A stretch of DNA of 63,862 nt from Gammaproteobacteria bacterium (lineage in GTDB: Bacteria > Pseudomonadota > Gammaproteobacteria > SZUA-140). Location of the stretch: NCBI GenBank assembly GCA_015491865.1, contig WFVD01000022.1, positions 1 through 63,862 on the forward strand, given 5' to 3'. The notes under the pieces were generated by a model. That model saw nothing but the letters and a program-made list of their open reading frames with translations. It had not been told where the DNA came from and did no database searches. Position numbers and translations under genes: made by a program. Within the stretch, counting starts at the first letter, position 1; every line of letters begins with the position of its first letter. Positions 2,885 to 19,777 of the stretch are shown here, piece after piece.

Positions 2885-2973
2885 TCCTGGACGCTAGAAA
2901 TTACACGTACGAACCGTTGGCGCTATCGATAGAATTTGCAGGCAGTGTCTTTGTTATTGAAAAGGAGAAAAGG

Positions 2974-4113: not shown

Positions 4114-4142
4114 CAGTGGCGCGGTCAGTTCGTTCACTTGAG

Positions 4143-4170
4143 CGGGTGCCTTTGGGTGCCCGTTTTTTTT
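4143..4170 (+). terminator. Rho-independent terminator of the third porin
   Basis: CGGGTGCC pairs with GGTGCCCG (two G-T pairs) around a 4-base loop, followed directly by eight T residues. It separates the porin from the cytochrome cluster downstream. Confidence 0.8.
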
Positions 4171-4306: not shown

Positions 4307-5146
4307 ATGACAAGGCGTGGTGGGGGAGCCCGTTTCAGCGGGCATTTGTTAGGGGGAGTCCTGGCGGGTCTATTGTTGCCTGCTATGTGTGCTGTCGCTG
4401 GCGTCTACAACACCAAACATAATCTCGGCAGTAGTGGTCTTAATGCGGCCAGTAACTTCAGTGGCACCGAGGAGATCTGCGTCTTTTGCCACACCCCACA
4501 TGGTGGCGACGCCACGGCGGCGGTACCGATCTGGAATCGGCATCTTGATCCTGGCGGTTTTCAAACGTACGACCAGATGGGCACCACCACGCTGGATGCC
4601 AACATTGAGGCGGTAGGCTCTGTTTCAATTGCCTGCCTTTCCTGTCACGACGGCTCGCAGGCGATGGATTCAGTGATCAACGAGCCGGGTTCTCTCTCCG
4701 ATAACCCCTCTTTTTCAGCGGGTGACTGGAGCGGCCAGGCGGCTGCTGTGCAGGGGCGTATCGGCCCGGTTGATGTGGTGACAAACCTGGGTAAAGACCT
4801 GACTAATGATCACCCGATCGGGGTTCAGTACGCGGGTGGCGGTTACTCGGAATCATACCCGCAGGGTCGTCCAAGAGTGGATATCGACTTCAACCCGCCT
4901 AGCTCGGAGGTGCTGAGTACGGGGCGTGTGTGGTGGGTGGATAGCCGTGAGCATCCCGAGGCATCTTTTAGTAAGCGAGATTTAAAGCTCTACTCGCGTG
5001 TAGGGACACGTGGCACGAATATCGGAGAGCTACAGCCGTATGTGGAGTGTGCATCATGTCATGACCCGCATGTGGATTATAACCCAACCTTTTTGAGGAT
5101 CGACCCGGTTGGCAGTTCGGTCTGTCTAACCTGTCATGCGAAATAG
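4307..5146 (+). CDS. Secreted tetraheme c-type cytochrome (paired CXXCH type)
   Basis: This 279-residue protein opens the electron-transfer cluster. A signal peptide covers residues 1-32 and is followed by GVYNTKHNLGSSG. Four heme-binding motifs are present: CVFCH, CLSCH, CASCH and the C-terminal CLTCH. The context CVFCHTPHGG, WNRH, NDHPIG is shared with the undecaheme cytochrome at 13599 and the pentaheme at 53326, so these are one family. Such proteins pass electrons between periplasm and cell surface. A ribosome site (GGGGGGAGAG) lies upstream of the ATG. The stop codon abuts the PPIase gene, so the two are co-translated. Its exact place in the chain is not determined by sequence. Confidence 0.85.
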   Translation: MTRRGGGARFSGHLLGGVLAGLLLPAMCAVAGVYNTKHNLGSSGLNAASNFSGTEEICVFCHTPHGGDATAAVPIWNRHLDPGGFQTYDQMGTTTLDANIEAVGSVSIACLSCHDGSQAMDSVINEPGSLSDNPSFSAGDWSGQAAAVQGRIGPVDVVTNLGKDLTNDHPIGVQYAGGGYSESYPQGRPRVDIDFNPPSSEVLSTGRVWWVDSREHPEASFSKRDLKLYSRVGTRGTNIGELQPYVECASCHDPHVDYNPTFLRIDPVGSSVCLTCHAK

Positions 5147-6124
5147 GTGATGCAGATGCGGCTGGCAGTGTTGTGTATGGTGTTGGGTTTGATGAGTGCA
5201 CCGCTGGTGGCGGATGAGGAGCTGGCAGCAGATCTGTTTGCTGTTGTGGATGGTGAGGCGATCTCACAGCAGACGTATGATCTGTTTTTACAGGTGGGCA
5301 AGCGCCAGCGCTTTTATCACGGGGATATCCCTGAGGCAGAAGCAGCGGCATTTCGCAAGGAGGTTGCGCAGCGCCTGATTGACCGTGCATTACTGCAGGC
5401 TGTTGTGCGTGAGCGCAAGATTATGCCTGATCCGGCGCAGGTGAAGGCGCAGCTTGCCTCGTTTGAGGCGCGGTACGAATCCCGCCCGCACTGGCAGGCA
5501 GAGCGTGAGGGGTTTCTAGCTGAGTTACTGCCCCAGGTAGAGGCGCGCAGCCAGCTTGAGCAGCTAGAGGCGCAGGTGCGGCAGGTGGGTGTGCTGGATG
5601 AGGCGGAAGTGAAGGCATATTACGAGGCCAATCCCGAAAAGTTTACCACCCCGGAGCGTGTGCGGGTCTCTCTGATCCTGCTGGCGGTGGAGCCGTGGGC
5701 GAAGGCGCTGCAGTGGCAGGCGGCAGTGGATGAGGCGCAGCGTTTGATAAAACAGCTGCAGCAGGGGGGTGATTTTGGTGAGATGGCGCGACTGCACTCC
5801 AGCGATGAATCGGCGCGACAGGGGGGGGATCTGGGTTACGTCCATCAGGGGATGCTGGCAGAGGAGGCGCAGCAGGTGGTTGATGCGCTCAGGCCGGGGG
5901 AGCTCTCCGTACCAGTTCGCTTGTTAAAAGGCGTTGCGATTTTCAGGGTAGAAGAGCGGGAGGCGCCTGTATTGAACCCGTTTGAAGATGTCGCTGAACG
6001 CGCACGCGCGCTGTATGCACGTGAGCTTAGTGACGAAAAGTGGCAGGGATTTATAGAGAAAATACGCAGTAGCGCGGAGGTGAGGGTGAGGGATCCGCTG
6101 CTGATGCCGGTGAACAATAAGTAG
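5147..6124 (+). CDS. Periplasmic parvulin-type peptidyl-prolyl isomerase (SurA/PpiC-like)
   Basis: This 325-residue chaperone or PPIase has a signal peptide (cleavage near LVADEE), a SurA-like helical N-domain at about 30-150 and one parvulin domain at about 165-265, recognisable by GGDFGEMARLHSSDES, QGGDLGYV and LRPGELSVPV. SurA-family proteins fold outer-membrane barrels. It lies between a cytochrome and a barrel gene, which suggests a chaperone dedicated to that barrel. The GTG at 5147 directly follows the previous stop; ATGs at 5150 and 5156 are equally possible starts, and no clear ribosome site is visible, so coupling to the upstream gene is likely. Confidence 0.85.
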   Translation: MMQMRLAVLCMVLGLMSAPLVADEELAADLFAVVDGEAISQQTYDLFLQVGKRQRFYHGDIPEAEAAAFRKEVAQRLIDRALLQAVVRERKIMPDPAQVKAQLASFEARYESRPHWQAEREGFLAELLPQVEARSQLEQLEAQVRQVGVLDEAEVKAYYEANPEKFTTPERVRVSLILLAVEPWAKALQWQAAVDEAQRLIKQLQQGGDFGEMARLHSSDESARQGGDLGYVHQGMLAEEAQQVVDALRPGELSVPVRLLKGVAIFRVEEREAPVLNPFEDVAERARALYARELSDEKWQGFIEKIRSSAEVRVRDPLLMPVNNK

Positions 6125-6191
6125 GGGGTTGTTCTGATTACCATGCGGTCGTTGCAAGTTGTGATTGTGACGTTAGATAAGTGCTGGCTAA

Positions 6192-7988
6192 ATGGCTAGG
6201 CGAATGGCAGGCTCGAGACGTTTTCGTCTGATCGCCTGTTCGGCGCTACTGTGTCCGCTCGCCGCACCCTATGCCGCGCCTGTCGATCTCTCCGGTGAAG
6301 TTGGCTACGCCTACCGCATGCTAAAAGGCGATACGGAAGAGACTGTTAGCAACCAGATGCGTGGCGCAATACAGGGCAAGAGTTATCTGTGGCAGCCGTG
6401 GATTGCAACAGTGGATGTTGGTGTGCGGTTAACACAGGATGAAACGAGTTATCGTCTGGATTCAAACCCAAATGTCAATGACAGCTCCTCGACCCTTCTG
6501 ACTGGAGACCTCAATCTGAATGTGATTCCGCAGAGCCGTTACCCGATTGCGCTCTCATTTTCGCGTAGTGATAGTCGTGTGGATACAGTGAACACGATTA
6601 CCAGTCCATTAACCGCTGTCGGAAGCCGGGAGTTTGAGACCCAGCGCTTTTCGATCAGGCAGAATATAGATGCCCGAGAAGCGGGGCGTTATCAGTGGAA
6701 TTTTGACAGCAATACATGGGATTCGACAAATAGTGAGAAATACAGCGACTGGCTACTCGGTGGCAGCGCTGACATCGGTTTTGATGATCACCGTTTCCAG
6801 TTGCGTGGTAGCTACAAAGTCATCGACCGAGCCGTGCTGAGTCAGGAATCGACCAACCTGACGCTCGGGGGGGATTATTTCTATTTTGATCCAGAAAATG
6901 CGATTCGCGTGGACACCTCAGCCGACTATTACCAATATAATACAAAAGGGAAGGCCTCTTCTGTTGTATTTAGTAATGGCGAGGTCGATACGACAAGTCA
7001 GCAGGTGTCGAGTTTTGTTTTTTGGCGTCCTGTTGATCGAAAAGTGACTGCGAGCGCAGGTGTTCGACTGTTTAATCTCAATAGTGATGCCGGCTCGAGC
7101 AATACGGGGCCGACCGCTATCAGTAACGAAACTGAACTGCTGAGTCTCAACGCAACGGCAGGGGGGCTCTACCAGTTCAGTAAAAATATCCGCTTCGATG
7201 CGAACCTGAACTTCTCAACTAATGATAATGGAAGCACGAGCAATAACGCTTATCTTGGTCGAGCGGGTGGTTTGCTACAGTCTGATATTCATGAGTTCTT
7301 TTGGGGAATGGGGTATCAGTGGTATGCTTCAGGCGCGCTGCAATATCAGGGCACCGAGACTGACGACATTACCTCAGGCAATCTCCGTCTGGGCCATGAT
7401 CTCAATCGCGCGTGGATGAATGATGATAAAAGCTCAACGATCCGTCTCTCCATAAGTCAGGCATTGAACGGAATTGCTGAGTCAGGCGATAATAATACAA
7501 ATGATGTGCGGCATGATCTCTCAATGACATTTGGCTGGGATAGTTATGGTCATGGTGGCAGTACATACGCGCAACTGACGGTTTCAGATGCGCGTACGAT
7601 TGGTGATCGGGAAAGTGATCAACAGCTGGTCAACTTTCAGCTGTCACGAACGCAGAATTTTACCCGGCGCAGCTCGCTAACAGGAAATCTGACAGGGCAG
7701 AGTGTGCGCCAGAAGTTTGATGGGCAGGATGGGGGTGAGACGTCTACAACCACCACAGGATCGCTGAGTTATCAGCATTCCAGGGTGTTTGGAGCGCCTC
7801 GACTTCGTTTTGGATCGGACGTTCGAGTCTCTCGGGCTTCCGACGATAGGGGGGTAGATCGCTCTGAATGGGAAAACCGACTGGATTATAGTGTCGGTCT
7901 AGTAGATACTAGGGCAAGTTGGCGCCTGATAGATGCTGGGGAGCAGGAATACAGTTTGGTGTACTTTCAGGTTACACGACGTTTCTGA
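6192..7988 (+). CDS. Large outer-membrane beta-barrel of the porin-cytochrome conduit
   Basis: This 598-residue protein has a signal peptide (cleavage near PYAAP) and a mature region of regularly alternating polar and hydrophobic strands, for example WDSTNSEKYSDW and RLSISQALN, ending in VYFQVTRRF with the terminal Phe of BAM substrates. Its length, the lack of cysteine in the mature part and its position among multiheme cytochromes fit the role of MtrB, PioB or Geobacter OmbB barrels, which wrap a cytochrome so electrons cross the outer membrane. I see no clear sequence match to MtrB. The role is inferred from architecture and neighbours. A second in-frame ATG at 6204 could be the start. Confidence 0.72.
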   Translation: MARRMAGSRRFRLIACSALLCPLAAPYAAPVDLSGEVGYAYRMLKGDTEETVSNQMRGAIQGKSYLWQPWIATVDVGVRLTQDETSYRLDSNPNVNDSSSTLLTGDLNLNVIPQSRYPIALSFSRSDSRVDTVNTITSPLTAVGSREFETQRFSIRQNIDAREAGRYQWNFDSNTWDSTNSEKYSDWLLGGSADIGFDDHRFQLRGSYKVIDRAVLSQESTNLTLGGDYFYFDPENAIRVDTSADYYQYNTKGKASSVVFSNGEVDTTSQQVSSFVFWRPVDRKVTASAGVRLFNLNSDAGSSNTGPTAISNETELLSLNATAGGLYQFSKNIRFDANLNFSTNDNGSTSNNAYLGRAGGLLQSDIHEFFWGMGYQWYASGALQYQGTETDDITSGNLRLGHDLNRAWMNDDKSSTIRLSISQALNGIAESGDNNTNDVRHDLSMTFGWDSYGHGGSTYAQLTVSDARTIGDRESDQQLVNFQLSRTQNFTRRSSLTGNLTGQSVRQKFDGQDGGETSTTTTGSLSYQHSRVFGAPRLRFGSDVRVSRASDDRGVDRSEWENRLDYSVGLVDTRASWRLIDAGEQEYSLVYFQVTRRF

Positions 7989-8041
7989 CAGGCGTCGTAG
8001 GCCTCATATAATAAGAGTAAATTACGAGGAGAGAGTTTGAT

Positions 8042-8479
8042 ATGTCATCTAAGATCAAGCGTAATGTATTGAAATCGATGATCATAGGGGTGTTGGCTTA
8101 TATGGGGACTCTGGGGGTCCCGCAGACTGCGCAAGCAGAATATGCCGATGTCGTGATCAATAACTATGCCGATGCGGCAGGCATGCGCCCTGCAGTTTTC
8201 CCGCACTGGTTCCACCGTATTCGTTTCCGTTGCAAGGTCTGTCATGCAGATCTGGGTTTTGCTTTTAAGGCCGGTGGCAACAAGATCACGATGGCGAAAA
8301 TCATCGACGGCAAGTTCTGTGGCGCATGTCACAATGGTGAAATCTCATGGTCAGTAGAAAACTGTGCGATGTGCCATTCGGGGGTTCCGGGGCAACCAAC
8401 CCATTTTCACGGTAGCACGGTGCAGCGTCTGATCGCGCCGGCATACAAGCCGCTTCAAGTTAAAGACACAACTAAATAA
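8042..8479 (+). CDS. Triheme c7-type cytochrome
   Basis: This 145-residue periplasmic cytochrome has a signal peptide (cleavage near AQAEY) and three motifs: CKVCH, CGACH and CAMCH. The flanking pattern (FPHWFHRIRFRCKVCH, ITMAKIIDGKFCGACHNG) is that of the c(7)-type triheme family, in which extra histidines supply the second axial ligands. Such small cytochromes shuttle electrons across the periplasm between inner-membrane donors and the outer-membrane conduit. GAGGAGAG lies upstream of the ATG. The next triheme gene follows after 12 bases. Confidence 0.9.
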   Translation: MSSKIKRNVLKSMIIGVLAYMGTLGVPQTAQAEYADVVINNYADAAGMRPAVFPHWFHRIRFRCKVCHADLGFAFKAGGNKITMAKIIDGKFCGACHNGEISWSVENCAMCHSGVPGQPTHFHGSTVQRLIAPAYKPLQVKDTTK

Positions 8480-8491
8480 GGGAAGCTAGCC

Positions 8492-9160
8492 ATGAATCAG
8501 AAAACAAAAGCTATTTCCTTGACATGTGCAGTTATGATGGCTGCATTTATGTGGAATACACAAAGTCACGCTGCCGAGGTGGGCGAGAAAGAGATGCCTT
8601 TGATGTTGGCCGAGGTTTCATCTGTCAACACCTTTAACGTTAACCTGAAAAAACCAAAGTCACGTAATCTGCCGCCCGCAGAAGATGGCATTCATGACCC
8701 GGAAAATGAAGCGACCCATTCGCTACAGCATCCGCTTGATGCCTATAAAGGGTTACCGCCAAGTGATTTCGGTAACTATGTTGATTGGGTGAAGGCGATT
8801 GACGAGGGCAAAATACGCCCACGTTGGGATCGCGCTGACCCTAACTCAGAGCCGTTTGTGATGGATCTGGATATCGTTCGTCCAGTGAAAGCCTCAGTAC
8901 CTGACGTTGTTTTTCCTCATCGACAGCACACAGAGTGGCTTTTATGTTCAAACTGCCATCCTGCGGTCTTTGTACCACAGCGCCTGGCTAACCAGATCAG
9001 TATGTCTGCTATCCTGCTCGGTCAGAAATGCGGTCTATGCCACGGTAAAGTCTCATTTCCTGTTGAGACCAAAACCTGTCGCAAGTGTCACTCCAAGCCA
9101 AAGCCTGCTGATTGGGAGCCACCTTTGAGTGAAGCGACACTGAAGAATCCTTGGAAATAA
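8492..9160 (+). CDS. Triheme c7-type cytochrome with N-terminal extension
   Basis: This 222-residue secreted cytochrome has a signal peptide to about residue 28, an extension of about 110 residues with LPPAEDGIHDPENEATH, then a c7-type triheme domain (FPHRQHTEWLLCSNCHP, CGLCHGKVSFP, CRKCHSK). The paralogue at 10626 has the same layout, including AEDGIHDPTNDAVH, so the two arose by duplication. The extension may bind a partner such as the barrel or an NHL protein; that is speculation. GGAAG lies 9 bases before the ATG. A stable hairpin follows the gene. Confidence 0.9.
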   Translation: MNQKTKAISLTCAVMMAAFMWNTQSHAAEVGEKEMPLMLAEVSSVNTFNVNLKKPKSRNLPPAEDGIHDPENEATHSLQHPLDAYKGLPPSDFGNYVDWVKAIDEGKIRPRWDRADPNSEPFVMDLDIVRPVKASVPDVVFPHRQHTEWLLCSNCHPAVFVPQRLANQISMSAILLGQKCGLCHGKVSFPVETKTCRKCHSKPKPADWEPPLSEATLKNPWK

Positions 9161-9207
9161 CCGACATAATTAGTTCGAGCTGGTACATATTCTAAGGCGA
9201 TAAAACT

Positions 9208-9236
9208 AACGCCGGACGAGCTCTTCGTCCGGCGTT
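9208..9236 (+). terminator. Strong hairpin, partial terminator or mRNA end stabiliser
   Basis: A perfect 11-bp stem (AACGCCGGACG / CGTCCGGCGTT) with a 7-base loop stands in the 135-base gap between the triheme gene and the cupredoxin gene. It lacks a T-run, so it probably attenuates or protects rather than fully terminates. Confidence 0.5.
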
Positions 9237-9295
9237 CCCTATAATGTGTTTCAGTCTGGATTAATTGTTTAGTTAATTTAAGGATTATTGAAACC

Positions 9296-10624
9296 ATGAA
9301 AATACCATTTCTGACGCACGTTCCTATGAAGCCCGGGGTGATCGCTATCCTGCTTGGTCTGGCGCTGCCGGCCCATTCTGGCGATGACTGGGGGGATGAT
9401 GAGACGCTCGAGATTGAGCGTATTTTTGTGGTTACTGCAGATGACAAGCCCACGAACCACCCCTTTTATGGTGTTGGCCATAAACGCGGTATGGATATTG
9501 ACGGCGTTCCAGGTAAAGAACTCGTGCTGACGCGCGGGAAAAACTACGCTTTCAGAGTTGATACTGATATCAAACATGACTTCTACCTGTCGACTGAAGC
9601 GGTCGGCTGGGGAGCATCAGTATTAGCGGATGGGGTTGAAGGTAATTTTACCTATGACGGCATTGTCACCATTGAAACAACGAATAAGACACCCAGAGAG
9701 TTCTATTACGCCTGTCGTAACCATAAATATATGGGCGGCAAGATCCATCTTGCAAATGCGGGGGAAGAGGATAAGGTTGAGTTAGGTAAAATCGACATCT
9801 CGAAATTACCGCCCACTAAACCACCCAGGCCCGTCTCTGAACATACTGTCAAACAGAAAATAAGCTTTGCAGATATGTTTGTTAGCCAGTCGTCGGCTGC
9901 CAAACGTGTTGGTAACAGTGACAACGACAAGGCCAAGGTGGCTTACACTGATGCCCATGACCGACTCAATAAAGCCAAAATAGCACTGGAGGCAGATGAC
10001 CTCGTGTTGGCGCTGGAAGAAGTTGATGAATCACTACGTTCAATGAGCACCGCAGCTCGACTGGTGCCAACACCAGAACAGCTAGAAGAGCAGAAATTGA
10101 AATTTGCTGCCTTAATGGAGGAAGTTAAGGTTTTTGAAGAATCATACAAACGCAATGTTGAGCGGATGGAGAAGAGCGGCCGAACCGATGTGCGTGATCA
10201 CTTGAGCTACGCAGAGCTCGAAAGTACGATCGAGGCTGCTGAAAGCCTGCGCGATATGAAAGAGATTAGCGCCGCGAACCGTTTGATGATGAATTTGCAA
10301 AGGACAATTACCACGGCATTGGGTAAGATACTTGATAACCAGACTGTGGTATATGATAAAACCTTTGAGTCACCTCAGGAAGAGTATGAGTATGAGCTGG
10401 CGCGCTACCTGAGCTATGAAGAGCTGGTACCACTGGCTATTGAGCAGAAGCGCCCATCCAAGCGGGCGATTGAATTGATGGATCAATTTGTTGTGAAAGG
10501 AAAGGATATCTATCAGCAGTCAAAACCAGTAGCAGAGCAGAAGGATTATAAGAATGCGATTCTGATGTTGCAGGGGGCAACCTTCCAGATACAACGCGCA
10601 TTACGGATGGTGGGAGTGAGATAG
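9296..10624 (+). CDS. Cupredoxin-like copper protein with helical C-terminal domain
   Basis: This 442-residue secreted protein has a signal peptide (cleavage near PAHSGDD). Residues 40-155 look like a cupredoxin: IDGVPGKELVLTRGKNYAF is a typical early strand pair, and KHDFYLST with YYACRNHKYMGGKIHL supplies an apparent type 1 copper set of His94, Cys140, His143 and Met146 in the Cys-x2-His-x2-Met spacing. Residues 185-442 are helical and TPR- or coiled-coil-like, with no copper or heme motif. It lies 1 base ahead of a triheme gene within the conduit cluster, so it may add a copper step to the electron path. The copper site is read from sequence; the redox role is inferred. Confidence 0.75.
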   Translation: MKIPFLTHVPMKPGVIAILLGLALPAHSGDDWGDDETLEIERIFVVTADDKPTNHPFYGVGHKRGMDIDGVPGKELVLTRGKNYAFRVDTDIKHDFYLSTEAVGWGASVLADGVEGNFTYDGIVTIETTNKTPREFYYACRNHKYMGGKIHLANAGEEDKVELGKIDISKLPPTKPPRPVSEHTVKQKISFADMFVSQSSAAKRVGNSDNDKAKVAYTDAHDRLNKAKIALEADDLVLALEEVDESLRSMSTAARLVPTPEQLEEQKLKFAALMEEVKVFEESYKRNVERMEKSGRTDVRDHLSYAELESTIEAAESLRDMKEISAANRLMMNLQRTITTALGKILDNQTVVYDKTFESPQEEYEYELARYLSYEELVPLAIEQKRPSKRAIELMDQFVVKGKDIYQQSKPVAEQKDYKNAILMLQGATFQIQRALRMVGVR

Positions 10625-10625
10625 C

Positions 10626-11273
10626 ATGATGCAGGCCATGAGTGAACGATCACAGAAGACACGACCAGCTGGTTGGTGGTGTGTGCTCGCGCTGATGGCC
10701 TGCTTACCCTTTAGCAAGCAGAGTCTCGCGGTGGATTCTGTTTTTTCTGATGCCTCCAAACCCTCTGAGCCGGGAATCACTGCCGTATGGTCACGTGGTC
10801 TTCACTTTCAGACAGAAGGTGAGGTGGTGCCGCTCGCTGAAGATGGGATACACGATCCGACTAATGATGCTGTTCACCTGTTACAGGAGCCATATGAATC
10901 GATGGCTGAGTTTCCTCGTGATTCGCAAGGGATCATCGACTGGGTTCAGACGTTACGCCAGGGGCTGATCGATCCCCGCATGAGCCTGACCGGTGAGGAA
11001 GAGATGTACACAGCCGATTTTGACATCATCTTTAAAAACACAGGCTCGATGCCGCATGTGCGCTTTCCACACCTGCAACATACAGAATGGCTGACCTGTG
11101 CAAACTGTCATCCATTGATCTTTATTCCTCAAAAAGGCGGGAATCCTGTCTCCATGTCTGCAATTATTCAGGGTGAATATTGTGGTGTCTGTCATGGCAA
11201 GGTCGCCTTTCCACCTACGATGAATTGTGGCCGATGTCATTCCGTTCCAAACCAAGCCAACTTACGGCGCTAA
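10626..11273 (+). CDS. Triheme c7-type cytochrome, second copy with extension
   Basis: This 215-residue paralogue of the cytochrome at 8492 has a signal peptide (cleavage near SLAVDS), the AEDGIHDPTNDAVH extension and the triheme domain FPHLQHTEWLTCANCHP, CGVCHGKVAFP, CGRCHS. It starts 1 base after the cupredoxin stop with little ribosome-site character, and its last 40 bases overlap the start of the NHL lipoprotein, so the three genes form a tightly coupled unit. It is probably a periplasmic or surface electron carrier. An alternative ATG is at 10629. Confidence 0.88.
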   Translation: MMQAMSERSQKTRPAGWWCVLALMACLPFSKQSLAVDSVFSDASKPSEPGITAVWSRGLHFQTEGEVVPLAEDGIHDPTNDAVHLLQEPYESMAEFPRDSQGIIDWVQTLRQGLIDPRMSLTGEEEMYTADFDIIFKNTGSMPHVRFPHLQHTEWLTCANCHPLIFIPQKGGNPVSMSAIIQGEYCGVCHGKVAFPPTMNCGRCHSVPNQANLRR

Positions 11274-12517
11274 TCGCGCTGTTCTCACTCCTCTTGCTTG
11301 GAGGGTGTTCAATGCTCTCCAGAGAGGGCGCACCGAGTGGTGGCAAAACGACACCAAAGCACCAGATGCTCTATGGCTGGCGTACGCTTGATGGTGGCTT
11401 TGAGGGGGGGGCGCTCACCGGCCGCAAGTATGTCCGTTTTGTTCGCCCTGTACAGGTGGCTGCGCGCGGTAACTTTGTTTTTGTAGTCGATGCGGGTGCC
11501 CAGCTGCTCTATCGTTATGATCTCTCTATTGATCAGCTTGAGGTTGTGATGGATCTTAAAGGGGTGACTGCCGGCGAGGTGTCGGATATCTATGTCTATC
11601 AGGACCACTCATTTTTACTGGTGGACCCCGATTCAGCTCGCGTACTGCATTTTAATCGCAATGGGCGACTGATTCGGGTCATTGAAGATAGCTTGAATCT
11701 GATACGCCCAGTTGCGGTCACCTACGATGAACAGATGGGGCGTCTCCTGATTGCCGATGGTTCCAGTGACGATATTCTGGTGTTTACTTCTACCGGTCAG
11801 TTGCAGGGGGTGATCGGTTCCCGCGGCCTGTCAGATGGGCGATTTCTCAATATCACAGCGATCACCACGGGCGGTGCCGGGATTTATGTCACAGCTCGCC
11901 TTGGGCATCGGGTTCAGGTGATGGGGCGCGATGGCTCCCATGTTGATACGTTTCAGCCTGATACAGTGGTGTTTCCACTGGCGGTGGCGGTAGATCGGGG
12001 GCTTAATGCCTTCGTAAGCGATTACCTCGATAACTCAATCAAGGTTTTTCGTGATGGGCTCTTTCTTGAAAGCATTGGAGGCTCAGGTTCAGGGTCCGGC
12101 CGTTTTAAACTGATTAGTGATCTCTGGTACGACGGTGGCTTTCTCTATGCGGTTGATAGCCTGAACGGACGAATCCAGATTCTGCGGGTCGAAATGGTTG
12201 AGGCTGAAGTGCCGGTTGAGATGGTTCCTCTGCCTGCTGAATCCAGTGGAGTAGTGACAGAGGGGGAAAGGGATAACACCCTGGCTGGCGAAGAAGCGCT
12301 CCCGGAAACAGTACCCGTTGACGAAAGCCAGTCGACACAGCAAGTGCTAGAGACAGCTCAGGATGAGCTTGAAAAACTTCAGGCAGAGCTGGAGAATGCG
12401 CGTGCTGAACTAGAGGCTGCGAAGGAAAAACAGGAGGGGAAAGCGCAGCTCCCTGATGCCCCTCAGCCAGCTCCATCTCAGATGGGCGCGACGCCTGATC
12501 TCAATAGTCAGGAATAA
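11234..12517 (+). CDS. NHL-repeat beta-propeller lipoprotein with coiled-coil tail
   Basis: I place the start at ATG 11234, which gives a lipoprotein signal (LLLLGGC, lipidated Cys25); a start at 11180 would add 18 residues that spoil the signal. Residues 50-330 carry NHL-type blades, each with a pattern such as RPVAVTYDEQMGRLLIADG followed by VLVFT or IKVF, forming a propeller. The last 90 residues are acidic and end in a coiled coil (DELEKLQAELENARAELEA) and a Pro-rich tail. NHL propellers bind proteins or polymers. The gene overlaps the triheme gene by 40 bases. It may scaffold the conduit on the membrane surface, but no biochemical role can be read from sequence. Confidence 0.82.
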   Translation: MSFRSKPSQLTALIALFSLLLLGGCSMLSREGAPSGGKTTPKHQMLYGWRTLDGGFEGGALTGRKYVRFVRPVQVAARGNFVFVVDAGAQLLYRYDLSIDQLEVVMDLKGVTAGEVSDIYVYQDHSFLLVDPDSARVLHFNRNGRLIRVIEDSLNLIRPVAVTYDEQMGRLLIADGSSDDILVFTSTGQLQGVIGSRGLSDGRFLNITAITTGGAGIYVTARLGHRVQVMGRDGSHVDTFQPDTVVFPLAVAVDRGLNAFVSDYLDNSIKVFRDGLFLESIGGSGSGSGRFKLISDLWYDGGFLYAVDSLNGRIQILRVEMVEAEVPVEMVPLPAESSGVVTEGERDNTLAGEEALPETVPVDESQSTQQVLETAQDELEKLQAELENARAELEAAKEKQEGKAQLPDAPQPAPSQMGATPDLNSQE

Positions 12518-12525
12518 ACATCACT

Positions 12526-13602
12526 ATGATTATGAAACCCCCATCCTGGTTGGCGGCGAGCCTATGTCTGCTCCTTGCAGGCTGCGCCTCATCGCCGGCC
12601 ACCTTAAACCTTGACCTTCAGGGTGCTGAAGGTCACCTCTGGCCATCGCCCCCAGAGGTTGCTCGCTATCAATATATTGGGCAGCTGACAGGTGAAGAGA
12701 ATTTCGTTAAAGAAAACAACGATGGTGCGATGGGGCGCAGGCTATTTGACTGGATGGTGGGGATTGTTGCGGGTGAAACGCTTCCAGTGGTGCTACAGCG
12801 ACCGCAATCAGGGGCGGTTGATCGTGATGGGCGCCTTTATGTGACGGATGTGAGCCGTGCGGCAATTTATGTTTTCGATCAACCAGCAGGCCAGCTTGAG
12901 GTGTGGGAGATAGCTGGTGAGCAGCTCCGCTTCAAAACGCCGGTTGGAATCGTTGTGATTGAAACAGACGAGGGAGGGCGGGAAATCCTGGTTGCAGATG
13001 CCGATCTCAAACGAATCGTGAGACTGGATCAGAGCGGCAAGCCTGTCGGCCATTTTGGTTCTGATGTGCTGGTCCGCCCAACAGGGCTTGCACGTGACCC
13101 CGCCACAGGCAACCTCTATGTGGCTGACACCCACGCCCATGATGTGAAAATCTTTAGTGCCGAAGGTCGCCTGCTCCGGCGAGTTGGCGCGGGAGGACGC
13201 GGTGAAGGTGAAGGGCAGTTTAATTCGCCAACCCATCTTGCTTTTGCACGCGGTCAGCTCTATGTGACCGATACACTCAATTCTCGGATTAAAGTGTTGA
13301 GTGCTGATGGCGAGTTTCTTCGTACCTTTGGTCGCCGAGGCCTCTTTGTTGGCGATTTACCCCGCCCTAAAGGAGTAACAGTCGATAAAGACGGCAATGT
13401 CTATGTGGTGGAATCCTATTATGATCATCTGTTAGTATTCAACGAAGAGGGGAATCTGCTGTTGCCAATCGGGGGCTCGGGCAGTGGCGTAGGGGAGTTT
13501 TACCTACCCGCAGGCGTCTGGACAGATCAGCGTGACAGAATATATGTGGCCGATAGTTTTAATGGTCGGGTCGTGATTTTGCAATATTTGGGGGGGGCAT
13601 GA
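12526..13602 (+). CDS. NHL-repeat beta-propeller lipoprotein
   Basis: This 358-residue lipoprotein has signal peptidase II motif LLLAGC with the lipidated Cys at residue 20. About five to six NHL blades span residues 80-355, each with a core like PTGLARDPATGNLYVADT and IKVLSADGEFLRTFG. It is related to the NHL lipoproteins at 11234 and on the minus strand at 52223. Its stop overlaps the undecaheme cytochrome start (ATGA), which implies translational coupling and probably a physical partnership with that cytochrome. The same pairing of NHL lipoprotein with multiheme cytochrome recurs at 52223-54090. Confidence 0.85.
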   Translation: MIMKPPSWLAASLCLLLAGCASSPATLNLDLQGAEGHLWPSPPEVARYQYIGQLTGEENFVKENNDGAMGRRLFDWMVGIVAGETLPVVLQRPQSGAVDRDGRLYVTDVSRAAIYVFDQPAGQLEVWEIAGEQLRFKTPVGIVVIETDEGGREILVADADLKRIVRLDQSGKPVGHFGSDVLVRPTGLARDPATGNLYVADTHAHDVKIFSAEGRLLRRVGAGGRGEGEGQFNSPTHLAFARGQLYVTDTLNSRIKVLSADGEFLRTFGRRGLFVGDLPRPKGVTVDKDGNVYVVESYYDHLLVFNEEGNLLLPIGGSGSGVGEFYLPAGVWTDQRDRIYVADSFNGRVVILQYLGGA

Positions 13603-16304
13603 GACGTCACTTTACAGGCACGTTACTGATCCTGTTTGCTGTTTTATCGACGGTAGAGCTGGCCAATGCCGCACGTATTTCAGATATTTCAAATACCAAA
13701 CATAACTTTTCTGCCACGGTTGCTCCGAGCGAGACGACACGCGATGCCAGTGCCGTATCTGAGTCCCAGATCTGTGCTTTTTGTCATACCCCGCATGGTG
13801 CCACCAACGAAGCGCGAACGCCGCTCTGGAATCGCACCCTCTCAAATGCGACCTACACCCCTTACTCATCAACCTCTCTGGATGCCACTGATCTGGGGCA
13901 GCCTGAAGGAAAATCAAAACTCTGTCTCTCATGTCATGACGGCACCCTTGCGCTCGGTTCGGTCAATGTACTGAACCGTGAGGAGCTAAAGAAAGAGGGG
14001 CGCAGCCTACCATTTCAGGGGACACGTCCTGATGGAACTATTCCTGATGGGCTGGGTGAGACCACTGGCTTTACCCGCCGTATTGGTGTTGATCTGAGTA
14101 ATGATCATCCGATCTCGTTTACCTTCGACAGCGCGCAGGCGGCACGCGACGGCGAGTTATTTAACCCTGCCGCTGAGTCGCACATCAAAGAGCGTCGCCC
14201 CGGTAGTGGCCCGCCATTTCCACAGGCGCAGCATACGGGCGTGGAAGGGTATTTGCCGCTCGAAGATGGGCAGGTGGAATGCATCACCTGTCATGACCCC
14301 CATATTCGCTCGGATGATCCAAATGAAGGGAACATCAAGTTTCTGCGTGTTAACCGTCTGCAGCGTAATGCCGAGCCTGTTGATAAGCAGTTTAATGCGG
14401 ATAACGATATCATCTGTATTGCCTGTCATGACAAAGCGGGCTGGGTCGGCTCTGCTCACGCCAATCGCCTGGCGGCTGATGAACGATATGAAGTGAGCGC
14501 CGGTGACCTGCGTGAATTCCCGCGTGATACACAGGTGTGGCAGGCGGCGTGTCTGAATTGTCATGATCCACACACCGTCCAGGGTTCACGCCGTATTTTA
14601 CGCGAGGGGACGGATGGCCCAACGACCATCGATCCAGTGACCGGTGCCAAATTTAAACAGGGCGGTGATCATGCAATCGAAGAGGTCTGCTTTGCCTGCC
14701 ACTCGCCGGATGGCGGGGTGTTAGCGGGTCAGGGAGGGATAGGTTTCCAGGTACCCGATGTGAAAACAGACTTTGTGACTCCGGGCAACACCCATATGCC
14801 GCTTCAGAGCGCCGACCAACGCGCAGGGCGTGAAGTCCATTCAATCGGTACCGGCAGTGACGGGCCTGAAGGGTTGACGCGAGGGCAGGACTTTGTCGAG
14901 TCACCCGAAAACCTGGGTAAAGGTAACCTGATGAATCGCCATGTGGAATGTACGGATTGCCATAATCCACATCGTGTTGCAAAAAACCGTATGTTTAATG
15001 CTAATAATGCGATTCCAGATGAGGCCGGTACTCACCCGCATACACCGGCCGATATCGCTGCCAATGGTCTGGCGATGCATAGCAACCTGGCATCGGGTGT
15101 GTTACGCGGCATCACCGGAGTCGAGCCGGTTTACGGCTCAGCCGCATTTGGTAGTGAGCCGATCAGTTTTACCCTGAAGCGTGGTGACCCCGGCACAGGC
15201 GGGAGGACGGATGTGGATGCACCATATGTGACGCGTGAGTATCAGGTCTGCCTCAAGTGCCATTCAAACTACGCCTACGACACCCCACCACCGTTAGGGC
15301 TGCATGGCGGCAGTACCCCTGTAGGAACCAACGAAATGTTTGAATACACTAACCAGGCGATGGAGTATCAGGCGCCGCCTTCGCATATGGGGGAGGCGAG
15401 TTCATTTCCGACGCCTGGCTGGGGGCCGTTTGCCGGTGTCGATGCGTTTGGTAATGACGTGAATTTTGAGACGGGAAACCATCGTTCATGGCATCCCGTT
15501 ATGGATAGAACAGGCCGTACGGCTGGCGCAGGTAATATTGCGGGCGGTGAGCGGCGGGCTGCCTCAGATGTCTGGCGTACGCCGTTTAATATTAACGGGG
15601 CGGTTGGTAATCAGACGATGTACTGCACGGACTGTCACGGTAATAACACCGCGAATGATACGGTGATCCCTAATGGTGGCGTTAATGGTGAGGTGTGGGG
15701 GCCGCATGGATCACAGAATAACTTCCTGTTAAAAGGACCGTGGGATGATCAGACAGGGCGGGCGCAACCCGATGGCCTCTGTTTTAGGTGTCACGATTAT
15801 GATCAGTATGGGCGTGATATTCTGGGTGCGACCAATGATGCCACCTTGAGCGGGCCTGATGCGATGGCGAGTGGCTTTAAAGCATCCGGTGGTAGCTCTG
15901 GTTGTCTGAACTTCCGTACAGTAAATTTACATCTGGGTCACAACAATTCAGTTGGCCTGGGTGTTAATAATTTTCGTTGTACCCTGTGTCATATTGCAGT
16001 GCCTCATGGCTGGAAAAACAAGGTGTTCCTTGCCAACTTAAATGATGTGGGGGAGGAGGCTGGGTTGGCTCCAGGCACCCAGGTGCGCTATTTAGGCTTC
16101 TCAGGTAATACCAATAAACCCAATGGTACTGGGCGTTATTATGCGGGTCCTTATTACAACGGCGCAGCGCTGAAGGTCGATACCTTTTCGCGAAGCGGTC
16201 TCTGGACAGATGCGAATTGTGGCTCTTCAGGGACACCTGGAAACGGAATCAAGGGGTTTGGCTGGATGACTAGCCTAGATGAGACATGCGCAAATCTCCC
16301 ATAA
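13599..16304 (+). CDS. Undecaheme (11 CXXCH) secreted cytochrome c
   Basis: This 901-residue protein has a cleaved signal peptide (about residues 1-24, LANA). Eleven heme motifs occur in order: CAFCH, CLSCH, CITCH, CIACH, CLNCH, CFACH, CTDCH, CLKCH, CTDCH, CFRCH and CTLCH. Many are followed by xPH, the paired-CXXCH family pattern. The N-terminal block (ISNTKHNFS, CAFCHTPHGA, LSNDHPIS) is shared with the tetraheme protein at 4307. It is the largest electron carrier here and the natural candidate for the outer-surface terminal reductase or oxidase. No lipobox or transmembrane anchor is seen, so it must be held by partners. The start overlaps the NHL gene and the end overlaps resB by 19 bases. 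Confidence 0.9.
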   Translation: MRRHFTGTLLILFAVLSTVELANAARISDISNTKHNFSATVAPSETTRDASAVSESQICAFCHTPHGATNEARTPLWNRTLSNATYTPYSSTSLDATDLGQPEGKSKLCLSCHDGTLALGSVNVLNREELKKEGRSLPFQGTRPDGTIPDGLGETTGFTRRIGVDLSNDHPISFTFDSAQAARDGELFNPAAESHIKERRPGSGPPFPQAQHTGVEGYLPLEDGQVECITCHDPHIRSDDPNEGNIKFLRVNRLQRNAEPVDKQFNADNDIICIACHDKAGWVGSAHANRLAADERYEVSAGDLREFPRDTQVWQAACLNCHDPHTVQGSRRILREGTDGPTTIDPVTGAKFKQGGDHAIEEVCFACHSPDGGVLAGQGGIGFQVPDVKTDFVTPGNTHMPLQSADQRAGREVHSIGTGSDGPEGLTRGQDFVESPENLGKGNLMNRHVECTDCHNPHRVAKNRMFNANNAIPDEAGTHPHTPADIAANGLAMHSNLASGVLRGITGVEPVYGSAAFGSEPISFTLKRGDPGTGGRTDVDAPYVTREYQVCLKCHSNYAYDTPPPLGLHGGSTPVGTNEMFEYTNQAMEYQAPPSHMGEASSFPTPGWGPFAGVDAFGNDVNFETGNHRSWHPVMDRTGRTAGAGNIAGGERRAASDVWRTPFNINGAVGNQTMYCTDCHGNNTANDTVIPNGGVNGEVWGPHGSQNNFLLKGPWDDQTGRAQPDGLCFRCHDYDQYGRDILGATNDATLSGPDAMASGFKASGGSSGCLNFRTVNLHLGHNNSVGLGVNNFRCTLCHIAVPHGWKNKVFLANLNDVGEEAGLAPGTQVRYLGFSGNTNKPNGTGRYYAGPYYNGAALKVDTFSRSGLWTDANCGSSGTPGNGIKGFGWMTSLDETCANLP

Positions 16305-17353
16305 GGGGTACGTTGCGAACGCTCGCATCAACCAGGTTAACACTGCTGTGGATGTTGCTGTTAGCGATCGGGGCCGCACTTAGTTACGACAACCCTGCCG
16401 ATACTTCTATCTGGGTGCTAGTCGTACCGATGTTGTTGCTGGCGGTTAACCTGATCGCGGCGATCATTAGCAATCCTCGAATAAACCGTCGCGGTGGTCT
16501 GCTGGTTTTTCATCTGGGGCTGTTAGGGATCGTGTTACTGGCAGCCATTGGCCGCCTTAGCCATATGGAAGGGCGCGTTGAGATTGTCACTGGCAGCGAG
16601 TTTACTCGCGAGTCACTAAGTGATGTTCGTAGCGGGCCACTGCATAACGGGGCACTTGATCAGGTTCGCTTTGTGCAGGGGCCCTTTACGGTTGAGTATC
16701 GTGCACGGATGATGCGTGGCCTGACCCATAGTTACGTCGCGATCCCCGATAGTGAGGGGGGGTGGCGTGAACTTGTCGTGGGTGATGACCGTCCACTGCT
16801 GCTTGAAGGGTACCGCTTCTATACAACTTTCAACAAAGGCTTTGCACCTATCCTGAGCTGGATCGCAGACGATGGCCGGCCGGTCGAGACCGGTGCCGTT
16901 CATATGCCATCATACCCACTGTTTGATTTTAAACAGTCCAATAGCTGGACGCCGCAGGGGGGTGAAGAGATCAAGTTTTGGCTACAGCTGGAGACCGGCT
17001 TGACAGACAAGGAGGCGTGGGTACTTGATGGTCGCAATGCAACAGGCACACTCGTGGTGAATGTTGCCGGGGAGCGCACGGAACTCCTGCCGGGGCAGAG
17101 TGTCGAAATGCCGGGTGGAACATTGCGCTATGAACAGCTCTCCACCTGGATGGGGTACAAACTATTTTATGACCCTACTTTACAGTGGATGTTCCTGACG
17201 GCATTTATGACGGTGGTGGGTCTTGGCGTACATTTTTGGCGCAAACTCACGACCGAACCGTTAGGGCTGGATGATAAACAACAGGCGAAGCGGCGTAAGA
17301 TCGCACAGGATTCAACAGCCGTATCGCGTGCAAAAACAGTGCAGGAGAGTTAG
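16286..17353 (+). CDS. ccsB: System II cytochrome c biogenesis protein ResB/CcsB
   Basis: This 355-residue inner-membrane protein has three N-terminal membrane segments (about residues 18-35, 42-62 and 72-90, the last with FHLGLLGIVLL), a periplasmic domain of about 200 residues and a final membrane helix at about 305-322. This matches ResB/Ccs1, which with CcsA exports heme and attaches it to apocytochromes. The length is near that of a short-form ResB. It overlaps the undecaheme gene by 19 bases and is followed after 4 bases by ccsA, so maturation factors are made with their large substrate. Assignment rests on topology, neighbour and weak motifs. Confidence 0.82.
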   Translation: MRKSPIRGTLRTLASTRLTLLWMLLLAIGAALSYDNPADTSIWVLVVPMLLLAVNLIAAIISNPRINRRGGLLVFHLGLLGIVLLAAIGRLSHMEGRVEIVTGSEFTRESLSDVRSGPLHNGALDQVRFVQGPFTVEYRARMMRGLTHSYVAIPDSEGGWRELVVGDDRPLLLEGYRFYTTFNKGFAPILSWIADDGRPVETGAVHMPSYPLFDFKQSNSWTPQGGEEIKFWLQLETGLTDKEAWVLDGRNATGTLVVNVAGERTELLPGQSVEMPGGTLRYEQLSTWMGYKLFYDPTLQWMFLTAFMTVVGLGVHFWRKLTTEPLGLDDKQQAKRRKIAQDSTAVSRAKTVQES

Positions 17354-17357
17354 TGTC

Positions 17358-18227
17358 ATGACAGAGTTACCATGGTTATATGCAGGGCTGCTGGCTTACG
17401 CATTGGCAACAGTGGTTGCGATGGTGGGGATTGGTCGGTTGAGTAGCGCAGTCGCTGCCACGGCCCCCTCGCTAGCGGCAGCAGGCATATCGGAAAGCCA
17501 GCGAAATAATGAAAGGCTGGTGCTTGCATTAATGACCGCTGGGGTGGTGCTGCTGGTGGTCACATTAGCTGATCGTTGGGTTCGCATTGGACATGGCCCG
17601 TTTGTTAATCTGTTTGAGCTGCTGATTAGCCAGCTTTTTAGTCTGGGGCTGGTATACACGATCGCTTACTGGCGAATCCCTGTGCTGCGAACCACCGCTG
17701 TCGTGGTGTTGCCACTGATGTGGGTACTGGGTGTCTGGGTGCTGGCGCTGGAGCCTTCAGACAGTGTCTTTCCTCCAACATATCATAACCCCTGGTTGTG
17801 GGCGCATGTTGGCTTTGGAAAGTTTTTCCTGGCCTTCAGTCTTATCGGTACAGGCTTGGCCGGCGTGATTTTACTGCGTGGTAGGCCCTTTTTCAGGCGG
17901 CTGTTCAGCCACCTGCCGAATGATGTGATTCTCGATAAGCTGGCGTGGCGATTTATGCTGCTGGCGCTGGTGTTTGATAGCCTGATGTTGATCGCCGGCG
18001 CGGTCTGGGCGCAGGACGCCTGGGGACGCTACTGGGCATGGGATGCGCTGGAGACCTCATCGTTCCTCAATTGGCTGTTACTGGGTGCGGCGATTCATGC
18101 CCGAACCACTTATAAAGTGCCGATTCGACTCGGTGCAATTTTGATCATCAGCGTTTTTGTGTTTGCATTTGTCACCTATTTTGGGACCCCCTTTTACAGT
18201 GAGGCCGCACATAAAGGTGTTATCTAG
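17358..18227 (+). CDS. ccsA: System II heme handling protein CcsA/ResC
   Basis: This 289-residue multi-spanning protein carries the tryptophan-rich heme-binding signature WGRYWAWDALETSSF of the CcsA/CcmC/CcmF superfamily. Conserved histidines lie on each side, at WAHVGFGKFF and AAIHARTTYK, plus GHGPFVNLFELL near residue 80. I chose the ATG at 17358, preceded by GGAGAG, because the 29 residues from an earlier in-frame start are basic and non-membrane. With ResB it should form a periplasmic c-heme synthetase. The cell also encodes a complete System I operon from 31813, so this pair appears dedicated to the multiheme cluster. Confidence 0.9.
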   Translation: MTELPWLYAGLLAYALATVVAMVGIGRLSSAVAATAPSLAAAGISESQRNNERLVLALMTAGVVLLVVTLADRWVRIGHGPFVNLFELLISQLFSLGLVYTIAYWRIPVLRTTAVVVLPLMWVLGVWVLALEPSDSVFPPTYHNPWLWAHVGFGKFFLAFSLIGTGLAGVILLRGRPFFRRLFSHLPNDVILDKLAWRFMLLALVFDSLMLIAGAVWAQDAWGRYWAWDALETSSFLNWLLLGAAIHARTTYKVPIRLGAILIISVFVFAFVTYFGTPFYSEAAHKGVI

Positions 18228-18273
18228 TGCGCTACGAAATAGCCTTGACGATCTACTACCGGGGATGAGCTGA

Positions 18274-19068
18274 GTGGCTGGTAAGCAGAAAAGCAGTAAT
18301 GAATCGACAGTCACGACGCTATCCATTGTGATGATAGTGATAGTGAGCGCGGCCATTGTGATGTTGATGATGCGCGAAGACCCAGCTCAGAGGGGGATGG
18401 CGATGGTGCTGGAGAGACCAGCCAGCTCATCACTACCAACGCAAGCGAGCGCGTTGCCGGTTGACGTTGGGTCGAATGGTGCCGCATCGGAGCAATCAGC
18501 ACCTGAAATCGCCAGCGAGCAGCAGCAAACTGTTCCAGCTGCACCGCTGAGCGCCGAAGAAAAACGTATTGCTGAAATCACAACCCGCTTTGAGCAGGGG
18601 GTGGTGATGCTGCACGCCAAAGAGTTTGAGCACGCCGCAACCGCCTTTCACCGCGTCATGGAACTATCGCCGCGCATGCCTGAAGTCTATGTGAATATGG
18701 GTTATGCGAAACTGGGGCAGGCACTGCCGCGTGAGGCGCTGGTCTTTTTTGAGACCGCCACAAGGCTAAAACCAGAGCAGGCCAACGCATACTGGGGGAT
18801 GGCCGTCGCTCTGGAAAGCAGTGGTGATCTGGCGGGTGCATTAGGAGCGATGCGCACCTTTTTACATCTCTCGCCCGGCAATGATAATTTCGCGCGCCGC
18901 GCCCGCTCTGCCCTGTGGGAGTGGGAAGAGACACTCGCACGTGGGCCGCTGGCAGAGGAAGAGAAAGAGTTCCTGGAGCGTGGTGCACTACAGTGGGAGT
19001 CGCGCAATACCCCGCGTGATGAGGCTGATAGTGGCGAGCAACCCCTGCAGGTACAGCCCATTCAATAA
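18274..19068 (+). CDS. Membrane-anchored TPR protein
   Basis: This 264-residue protein has one N-terminal membrane helix (about 14-33), a low-complexity periplasmic linker rich in Ala, Ser and Pro, and about three TPR units between residues 105 and 215, seen as EHAATAFHRVMELSP, AYWGMAVALESSGD and similar repeats. The product starts at GTG 18274 behind GGGGATGAG. It lies just after ccsBA, where a TPR protein could hold apocytochromes in the way CcmI does for System I. That role is inferred from position only. Confidence 0.72.
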   Translation: MAGKQKSSNESTVTTLSIVMIVIVSAAIVMLMMREDPAQRGMAMVLERPASSSLPTQASALPVDVGSNGAASEQSAPEIASEQQQTVPAAPLSAEEKRIAEITTRFEQGVVMLHAKEFEHAATAFHRVMELSPRMPEVYVNMGYAKLGQALPREALVFFETATRLKPEQANAYWGMAVALESSGDLAGALGAMRTFLHLSPGNDNFARRARSALWEWEETLARGPLAEEEKEFLERGALQWESRNTPRDEADSGEQPLQVQPIQ

Positions 19069-19135
19069 GATCTCCTTGCACGATACAATTTGCACCTGTT
19101 TCGTATAAAGGTCTTAATAAACTGAGTTTTGAGAC

Positions 19136-19777
19136 ATGAAACGCCTGACAACTATTTTTCTAAGCCTGTTTTTGATGACCACTGCGGTACAGGTAGCTGC
19201 ATCACCAATAATTTTTCAGGAAGGGGTGAGCTACAGAGCGATCAAAGGTGCCAGCTCAACCTATCAAGGCGGGAAGGTCGATGTCGTGGAGATGTTGTGG
19301 TACGGCTGCCAGACCTGTTACGTGATGCAGCCAGAGCTGGAACAGTGGGCTAAAAATGCAGGGCAACGCATTGCGTACCGAAAGATGCCGGCGGTAACAG
19401 AAGAGAGTATGGTCTTACTGGCTAGGGCATATTATGCAGCCGAAGTGTTAGGGGTGAAGGAGCGGATACACAAGCCACTGTTTGCCGCGATTCATGAATC
19501 ACGGCGGCAGATCGCCAGCGAAGCCGATGTGATTGAGTTTTTTGAAGAACAGGGAGTCGCAGCGCAAGACTTTGAGCGGGCACTAAACAGTCATTATGTC
19601 AGTGGTAAATTACGTCGCGCCAGGATGATGAGTGAACGTTACGGGATCAATGGTGCGCCATCTGTGATTGTCGATGGACAGTACCTGGTTGATCCTTCGA
19701 TGGTATCCAGCCCACGTCGCTTTATCGAGGTGATTGATTTTCTAGTGACCCGAGCGCTCACAACGAAACGCCCTTAA
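19136..19777 (+). CDS. DsbA-like thiol:disulfide oxidoreductase with CQTC active site
   Basis: This 213-residue periplasmic protein has a signal peptide (cleavage near VAASP). A thioredoxin-fold active site WYGCQTCY (Cys58, Cys61) and a cis-proline loop GINGAPSVIVDG place it in the DsbA family, which introduces disulfides into exported proteins. The usual DsbA dipeptide is Pro-His; Gln-Thr should shift its redox potential. As the last gene of the cytochrome cluster it may handle the cysteines of CXXCH motifs before heme attachment. It stands 67 bases after the TPR gene with a modest ribosome site (GAG), so it could also have its own promoter. Confidence 0.82.
   Translation: MKRLTTIFLSLFLMTTAVQVAASPIIFQEGVSYRAIKGASSTYQGGKVDVVEMLWYGCQTCYVMQPELEQWAKNAGQRIAYRKMPAVTEESMVLLARAYYAAEVLGVKERIHKPLFAAIHESRRQIASEADVIEFFEEQGVAAQDFERALNSHYVSGKLRRARMMSERYGINGAPSVIVDGQYLVDPSMVSSPRRFIEVIDFLVTRALTTKRP

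Follow-up and report, generated by a model that had tools for sequence, protein, structure and literature searches.

The gene cluster at positions 4307–19777 of the analyzed window (the whole stretch of 63,862 nucleotides) is a new member of the known Uet system, because its gene order and heme counts match those published for uetABCDEFGHIJ, and it is very probably the uet operon itself, encoding the Uet electron conduit (Table 1). The less expected part of this known set, with which bacteria such as Tenderia probably take up extracellular electrons, is its small outer cytochrome, UetA, which falls in the family of OmcE, the subunit that Geobacter polymerizes into electrical nanowires. As a whole, the cluster probably specifies an outer-membrane conduit together with its own heme-attachment helper, and this conduit would terminate extracellularly in a cytochrome filament of the OmcE type.

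As originally predicted, fourteen plus-strand ORFs occupy this region, and five of the encoded proteins carry 24 CXXCH motifs (4, 3, 3, 3 and 11), compared with a mean of 0.07 and a maximum of 2 when the residues of the same five proteins were shuffled in 1000 trials. Pfam and NCBIfam searches recovered the PPIC-type isomerase, the NHL repeats in two lipobox proteins and the ResB, CcsA (Cytochrom_C_asm), TPR and DSBA domains that had been recognized from the sequence, together with three c7-type trihemes (TIGR04257). The barrel and the cupredoxin protein had no match in Pfam, and the barrel had none in NCBIfam.

Table 1. Genes of the uet cluster and of the second locus in the window.
Gene	Coordinates	Strand	Assignment	Details
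uetA	4307..5146	+	OmcE-family tetraheme cytochrome, nanowire-subunit homologue	Signal peptide; 4 CXXCH
uetB	5147..6124	+	Periplasmic SurA/PpiC-type peptidyl-prolyl isomerase	Rotamase E 3.2e-17; SurA_N_3
uetC	6192..7988	+	Outer-membrane beta-barrel, 28 predicted strands	AlphaFold2 mean pLDDT 83.1
uetD	8042..8479	+	Triheme c7-type cytochrome	TIGR04257 nanowire_3heme 64 bits, cut-off 40
uetE	8492..9160	+	Triheme c7-type cytochrome, N-terminal extension	TIGR04257 59.5 bits
uetF	9296..10624	+	Cupredoxin-like domain + helical TPR-like domain	Ligand set H94, C140, H143, M146
uetG	10626..11273	+	Triheme c7-type cytochrome	TIGR04257 64.5 bits
uetH	11234..12517	+	NHL-propeller lipoprotein	NHL + DUF5128 barely above cut-off; lipobox LLLGGC; likely start 11234 (ATG), ORF open from 11180
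uetI	12526..13602	+	NHL-propeller lipoprotein	NHL E 1.7e-25; lipobox LLLAGC
uetJ	13599..16304	+	Undecaheme cytochrome: OmcE-like tetraheme domain + heptaheme region	11 CXXCH
resB	16286..17353	+	Short ResB/CcsB-like protein	PF05140 E 1.9e-12
ccsA	17358..18227	+	CcsA-like heme lyase	PF01578 E 1.3e-22; WWD motif WGRYWAWD; likely start 17358, ORF open from 17271
TPR gene	18274..19068	+	TPR protein	TPR_2 E 4.9e-9; kept in most complete class clusters
dsbA	19136..19777	+	DsbA-like thiol oxidoreductase	PF01323 E 2.1e-16; active site CQTC; lineage-specific
I' (second locus)	52223..53341	-	NHL-propeller lipoprotein	NHL E 5.3e-19
A' (second locus)	53326..54090	-	OmcE-like pentaheme cytochrome	7TFS E 1.3e-14; CHIPP, distal His absent
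Cytochrome c gene (second locus)	54258..55661	+	Divergent cytochrome c, three monoheme domains	Cytochrome_CBB3 x3

The published Uet order runs from UetA (tetraheme) through UetB (isomerase), UetC (barrel), UetDEG (trihemes) and UetHI (NHL) to UetJ (undecaheme) (PMC10734462), and the name uetABCDEFGHIJ is used in PMC12575090. Among the locus tags of Ca. Tenderia electrophaga (PMC5371394), the trihemes Tel_16515/16520 correspond to D and E here, the TPR protein 16525 to F, the triheme 16530 to G and the undecaheme 16545 to J. The earlier guess of an undecaheme (uet) type was therefore correct, the match being to the published gene list and the Tenderia locus-tag order, by description rather than by sequence alignment. 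Most of 20 clusters fetched from the class were colinear for A-B-C-D-E-F-G-H-I-J-ResB-CcsA, and the TPR gene came next after CcsA wherever the stretch extended that far, with one locus excepted; uetJ is followed by ResB, CcsA and TPR in most complete clusters. DsbA is not part of this conserved run, a homologue being found at the same place only in loci L053, L058 and L070, all from one family. Moreover, among 369 sampled genomes of the class, UetC and strong UetJ (E<1e-40) were each present in 40, and the two sets of 40 are identical; barrel and undecaheme cytochrome, whose separate occurrence had been named beforehand as the finding that would speak against a module, therefore travel together.

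UetA matched PDB entries 7TFS (OmcE; E 2.3e-24) and 9yuq (E 6.4e-26), and the UetA family profile matched 7TFS over its full length (E 3e-73), with 32% identity between UetA and OmcE. From Geobacterales through to the UetA of the window, H38, H169, H255 and all four CXXCH motifs are invariant, H65 is retained throughout the listed sequences of UetA and of the OmcE type, and all candidates for the ligand that joins subunits are conserved in UetA. Judged from its sequence, UetA is a full-length OmcE relative with all heme ligands retained. By the same kind of comparison, the N-terminus of UetJ is a second OmcE-like domain (residues 12–241 against 7TFS, E 9.6e-18), and in L096, L124 and L125 the OmcE-like and heptaheme parts of UetJ are two separate genes. 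Thirteen histidines outside the CXXCH motifs are invariant across 61 UetJ homologues, for 11 hemes. An argument for UetJ as a cap based on one spare histidine is not decisive, as the surplus is two, and the spare-ligand count is therefore no more than suggestive. A confident fold of UetJ was not obtained with AlphaFold2 (mean pLDDT just 31.6), so the model lends no support to its placement.

An unlinked three-gene locus at 52–56 kb encodes the OmcE-like pentaheme cytochrome A', an NHL lipoprotein (I') and a triheme cytochrome. Of the 369 genomes, 32 had strong A' homologues, and all 32 are among the 40 with Uet, to which the A'-NHL-triheme locus is confined. I' adjoins A' in 30/30 loci checked and a triheme homologue lies beside A' in 28/30; Rhodocyclales-type clusters have an A'-NHL pair directly upstream of uetA. 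A' lacks the distal histidine after its first CXXCH (CHIPP), the equivalent of H65 being missing in the A' type only (10/10 four-heme and 30/30 five-heme forms), and the A' types form two fully supported clades in the tree. By analogy with His16 of OmcS, this histidine is the putative inter-subunit ligand, and A', with one ligand absent in every copy examined, would be a natural test of that model. The second locus also means that deleting uetA-J alone may leave part of the system. The module had been called self-contained, a term that is too strong because System I is also present in the genome and the cluster is accompanied by the unlinked second locus.

The N-terminal domain of UetF is cupredoxin-like, with a predicted type 1 copper ligand set. 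The four His-Cys-His-Met ligands are invariant in 15 aligned UetF homologues, 11 of which matched PF25489, and the profile match of the region to pseudoazurin was weak (E 0.63). The H-C-H-M motif was present in UetF of 17/17 clusters of the window's type and absent from all named OmcE-query loci, Rhodocyclales-type clusters included. The cupredoxin had been regarded as a possible extra part, which is ruled out by its position within UetF in all 17 clusters.

Regarding maturation, the cluster resembles System II (CcsBA) in its ResB and CcsA domains with a WWD motif. It differs from it in that its ResB, at 355 aa, is short (covering 150–365 of 486 profile positions), no CcsX/ResA or CcdA thiol-reduction partners were detected among the cluster genes with Pfam, and a full System I is found in the same genome. 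The proposal of a dedicated System II thus holds for the presence of ResB and CcsA in the cluster and needs a caveat because of the complete System I ccm operon at 31813–39657 of the same contig.

In the arrangement that we favor, UetB, System I and the ResB/CcsA pair would help to fold and heme-load the exported cytochromes, and the NHL lipoproteins may be assembly or anchoring factors. Trihemes D, E and G, plus cupredoxin F where present, would carry electrons across the periplasm, and UetC would form a 28-strand barrel wide enough to hold a cytochrome inside. Outside the cell, UetA would polymerize as OmcE does, each subunit giving a histidine to a heme of its neighbor; on the conserved ligands, filament formation by UetA is somewhat favored. 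UetJ, which combines an OmcE-like domain with seven further hemes, may link the filament to the barrel or cap one end, and A', with one conserved ligand absent, may serve as a starter or as a chain end, the latter being a rather doubtful role. A more specific proposal, put forward tentatively, regards Uet as the counterpart of the OmcE nanowire for taking up electrons. In it, an operon widespread in proteobacteria would build an OmcE-family filament on a 28-strand barrel, with UetJ as the junction and the unlinked pentaheme paralogue A', devoid of the bridging histidine, as end piece.

A plain porin-cytochrome conduit free of filaments, with UetC holding UetJ or a triheme, UetA monomeric at the surface and the OmcE likeness reflecting ancestry, is a possible arrangement, not the one we expect. 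Uet has been modeled in print as a porin-cytochrome complex (PMC10734462), and a Foldseek search with the UetC model gave MtrB (6r2q_B) the top TM score (0.46) among the matches listed. Many large barrels scored similarly, so strand count alone was used, which places 28-strand UetC in the size class of MtrB. However, UetA retains all of the OmcE ligands, among them the histidine that A' alone lacks, and the types of partner genes are akin to those of omcE loci, both of which argue against a conduit free of filaments.

Electron flow through this conduit is probably inward, since the genome encodes RuBisCO and Uet has been described from electroautotrophs. The same conduit running outward here, to reduce metals or electrodes, is unlikely: OmcE operates outward in Geobacter (PMC12307469), undecaheme cytochromes have also been reported in a manganese reducer (PMC13264449) and conduits of such type can reverse (PMC10734462), whereas RuBisCO and the occurrence of Uet in cathode and Fe(II) oxidizers (PMC5371394, PMC10734462, PMC12575090) point the other way, neither being proof of direction. 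Finally, the reading of the cluster as unrelated neighboring genes is refuted by an order kept across many families and the exact co-occurrence of UetC and UetJ, although promoter-like sites within the cluster (7985–8012 and TATAAT near 9240), of which the D-E segment has one of its own, would be compatible with sub-operon transcripts.

These results touch on the assembly of cytochrome nanowires, on their attachment to the cell and on the way in which electroautotrophs obtain electrons from solids. Should UetA prove to be a filament subunit of the OmcE type, the Uet operon would provide a short, conserved set of candidate genes for assembly.

OmcE nanowires were missing from the comparisons made in the original prediction. 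Most Geobacterales omcE loci contain a ResB-sized gene, CcsA, 8–9-heme cytochromes, NHL and OmcE, often with a second NHL, and in most of them there is a barrel-like ORF of 711–778 aa. Both neighborhoods thus have NHL, ccsBA and a barrel-like gene in common, and OmcE has homologues in UetA, the N-terminal part of UetJ and A'. The omcE loci differ from Uet in carrying cytochromes with 8 and 9 hemes in place of the trihemes and UetJ, and no UetB isomerase was seen at those examined. Homology between UetC and the omcE-adjacent barrels finds no support in hhalign (probability 0.4 on its 0–100 scale); with no detectable homology between their barrels, the clusters may share parts through convergence. 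Some OmcE relatives may be monomers, and homology to a filament subunit is no proof of polymerization.

With MtrCAB, PioAB and MtoAB, the cluster shares a big outer-membrane barrel plus multiheme cytochromes. Membership in the Mtr/Pio/Mto group is ruled out, in line with the predicted difference from MtrCAB and Pio: profile searches did not find PF11854 (MtrB_PioB) in UetC or the whole genome, and UetA and UetJ scored 25 and 41 bits for the DmsE-family decaheme (TIGR03508, cut-off 192) and 17 and 15 bits for the OmcA/MtrC family (TIGR03507, cut-off 209). The closest likeness in gene set, A-J order and heme counts (4, 3, 3, 3, 11) is to Uet of Ca. Tenderia electrophaga and Gallionella, to whose description in PMC10734462, PMC5371394 and PMC12575090 this cluster adds a conserved unit extending through ResB, CcsA and TPR, a UetF with a cupredoxin-like domain, and an unlinked second locus.

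Fourteen genes, all on the plus strand, fill the Uet cluster, with gaps or overlaps mostly below 70 bases and never above 135. Five of the encoded proteins carry 24 CXXCH motifs (4, 3, 3, 3 and 11), compared to a mean of 0.07 in a shuffled-sequence control, reproducing both the same-strand gene count and the motif count of the original prediction. Domain searches recognised the isomerase, the trihemes, the NHL proteins, ResB, CcsA, the TPR protein and the DsbA-like protein, and returned no family match for the barrel UetC. An AlphaFold2 model of good confidence gave UetC 28 strands; among the Foldseek matches listed the best TM-score was that of MtrB (0.46), which a second aligner tied with many other barrels. 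The inverted repeat between uetE and uetF (see table) may mark the end or protection of a D-E transcript and the start of F.

Coordinates of features in the window and, where a locus number is given, in homologous loci from other genomes
Feature	Position	Strand	Remarks
Three consecutive porin-like genes	126-4113		Immediately 5' of uetA
Terminator-like hairpin	4140-4165		After porin-like genes, 5' of uetA
Uet cluster	4307-19777	+	
Strong promoter-like match	7985-8012		CTGACA-16-TATAAT, 11/12; just 5' of uetD
Perfect 12-bp inverted repeat	9208-9250		AACGCCGGACGA..TCGTCCGGCGTT, then TATAAT
CHASE-PAS-GGDEF-EAL cyclic-di-GMP protein	19832-22564	-	Convergent with cluster end
System I ccm operon	31813-39657	+	Full, ccmA to ccmI
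Second locus, whole	52223-55661		Unlinked to Uet cluster; A', NHL lipoprotein, triple-domain cytochrome c
A', OmcE-like	53326-54090	-	Five CXXCH
Split UetJ equivalents	L096:14070-15970, L124:9953-11853, L125:9974-11862		Adjoin NHL; UetB-like isomerase nearby
TPR and NHL genes, Bacillus sp. 7884-1	L127:5459-7131		Near weak OmcE-like match, possibly contaminant or chance

The outcome that was to undo the proposed module, barrel and undecaheme protein mostly apart, failed to appear. UetC is present in 40 of 369 class genomes, exactly those with a strong match to the undecaheme UetJ (E<1e-40); the remaining 14 UetJ matches are weak, partial in coverage and without UetC. UetJ was also found beyond this class in a phylum sample. 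Most complete clusters among the 20 fetched retain the order A-B-C-D-E-F-G-H-I-J-ResB-CcsA-TPR, and the DsbA-like gene occurs in only three loci, all of one family.

The cupredoxin-like domain, put forward earlier as a possible extra part, is not one: it is the N-terminal domain of UetF, with its motif in all 17 clusters of the window type and H94, C140, H143 and M146 invariant in the homologue alignment; Rhodocyclales-type UetF consists of the helical part alone, without that motif. Dedicated, self-contained heme maturation held in part: "dedicated" is a fair reading because the ResB/CcsA pair travels with the cluster, but the cluster does not have to be self-sufficient, since the genome holds a full System I on the same contig and one further CcsA-like gene outside the cluster.

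UetA, the tetraheme, matched structure 7TFS, the Geobacter nanowire subunit OmcE (PMC11936953; PMC12954529), with E 2.3e-24 as a single sequence and 3e-73 over the full chain with a family profile, and the search reached OmcS at 2e-6. In OmcE and OmcS filaments alike, one heme takes a ligand from across the interface between subunits (PMC12307469). UetA and the OmcE of Geobacterales share, without variation, all eight heme cysteines, the four CXXCH histidines, H38, H169 and H255, and H65 (CHTPH) is retained in every UetA and OmcE form listed. We take the OmcS cross-interface ligand to be His16, directly after the first CXXCH, the same place as H65. Residues 12-241 of UetJ form another OmcE-like domain; UetJ looks like a fusion, judging by tetraheme and heptaheme halves that are separate genes in one Nitrospirota and two Desulfuromonadales-type loci. 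A different cluster type (L105, L108, L118, L119, L121 and L126; Gammaproteobacteria, Polarisedimenticolaceae) combines genes for an 18-24-heme cytochrome (~780-1020 aa), an OmcE-like protein with 5 hemes and NHL; contigs that extend far enough add an 11-heme protein of ~700 aa.

A search of the same genome for paired CXXCH found A', an OmcE-like pentaheme cytochrome reading CVYCHIPP where UetA has CVFCHTPH. An NHL lipoprotein gene lies 3' of it, and a divergent neighbouring gene encodes a cytochrome c made up of three monoheme domains. Strong A' homologues occur in 32 of the 369 genomes, all among the 40 with Uet. All 30 of 30 loci lack a histidine behind the first CXXCH and have the NHL gene adjacent, with the cytochrome c beside A' in 28. 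Rhodocyclales-type clusters carry a four-heme A' with its NHL partner immediately upstream of uetA, lacking the same histidine in 10/10 sequences; each A' group forms its own fully supported clade. A' may be a filament subunit that could accept a bridging ligand but not give one, and so a chain end.

The best-supported model is a conduit across the outer membrane, in which UetC would act with UetJ and the trihemes, ending in an OmcE-type filament built of UetA. The data establish which genes are present, their order and co-occurrence, their homologies and the conservation of ligands; we infer that UetA polymerises, where each part sits and that electrons flow inward, the last from RuBisCO in the genome and the biology of the Uet hosts already described, both circumstantial. 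For specialists, the parts that merit attention are the kinship with OmcE and the second locus.

Named Geobacterales omcE loci read, with small variations, ResB-like, CcsA, 9-heme, 8-heme, NHL, OmcE, (NHL), barrel-like; CcsA and a gene of ResB size are present there too, and homology of their barrel to UetC was undetectable. The published Uet set, uetABCDEFGHIJ (PMC12575090), comprises tetraheme UetA, isomerase UetB, barrel UetC, trihemes UetDEG, NHL proteins UetHI and undecaheme UetJ (PMC10734462). The Tenderia trihemes are Tel_16515, 16520 and 16530, which rank among that organism's most highly expressed genes; Tel_16525 codes for a TPR protein and Tel_16545 for the undecaheme (PMC5371394). 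As the tags step by five, the order is D, E, F, G, (H, I), J, as in our cluster, a likeness of part list and locus-tag order drawn from description rather than sequence. Because part list and order agree, the suspected uet type was right: the cluster is real, conserved and a new member of the published Uet system.
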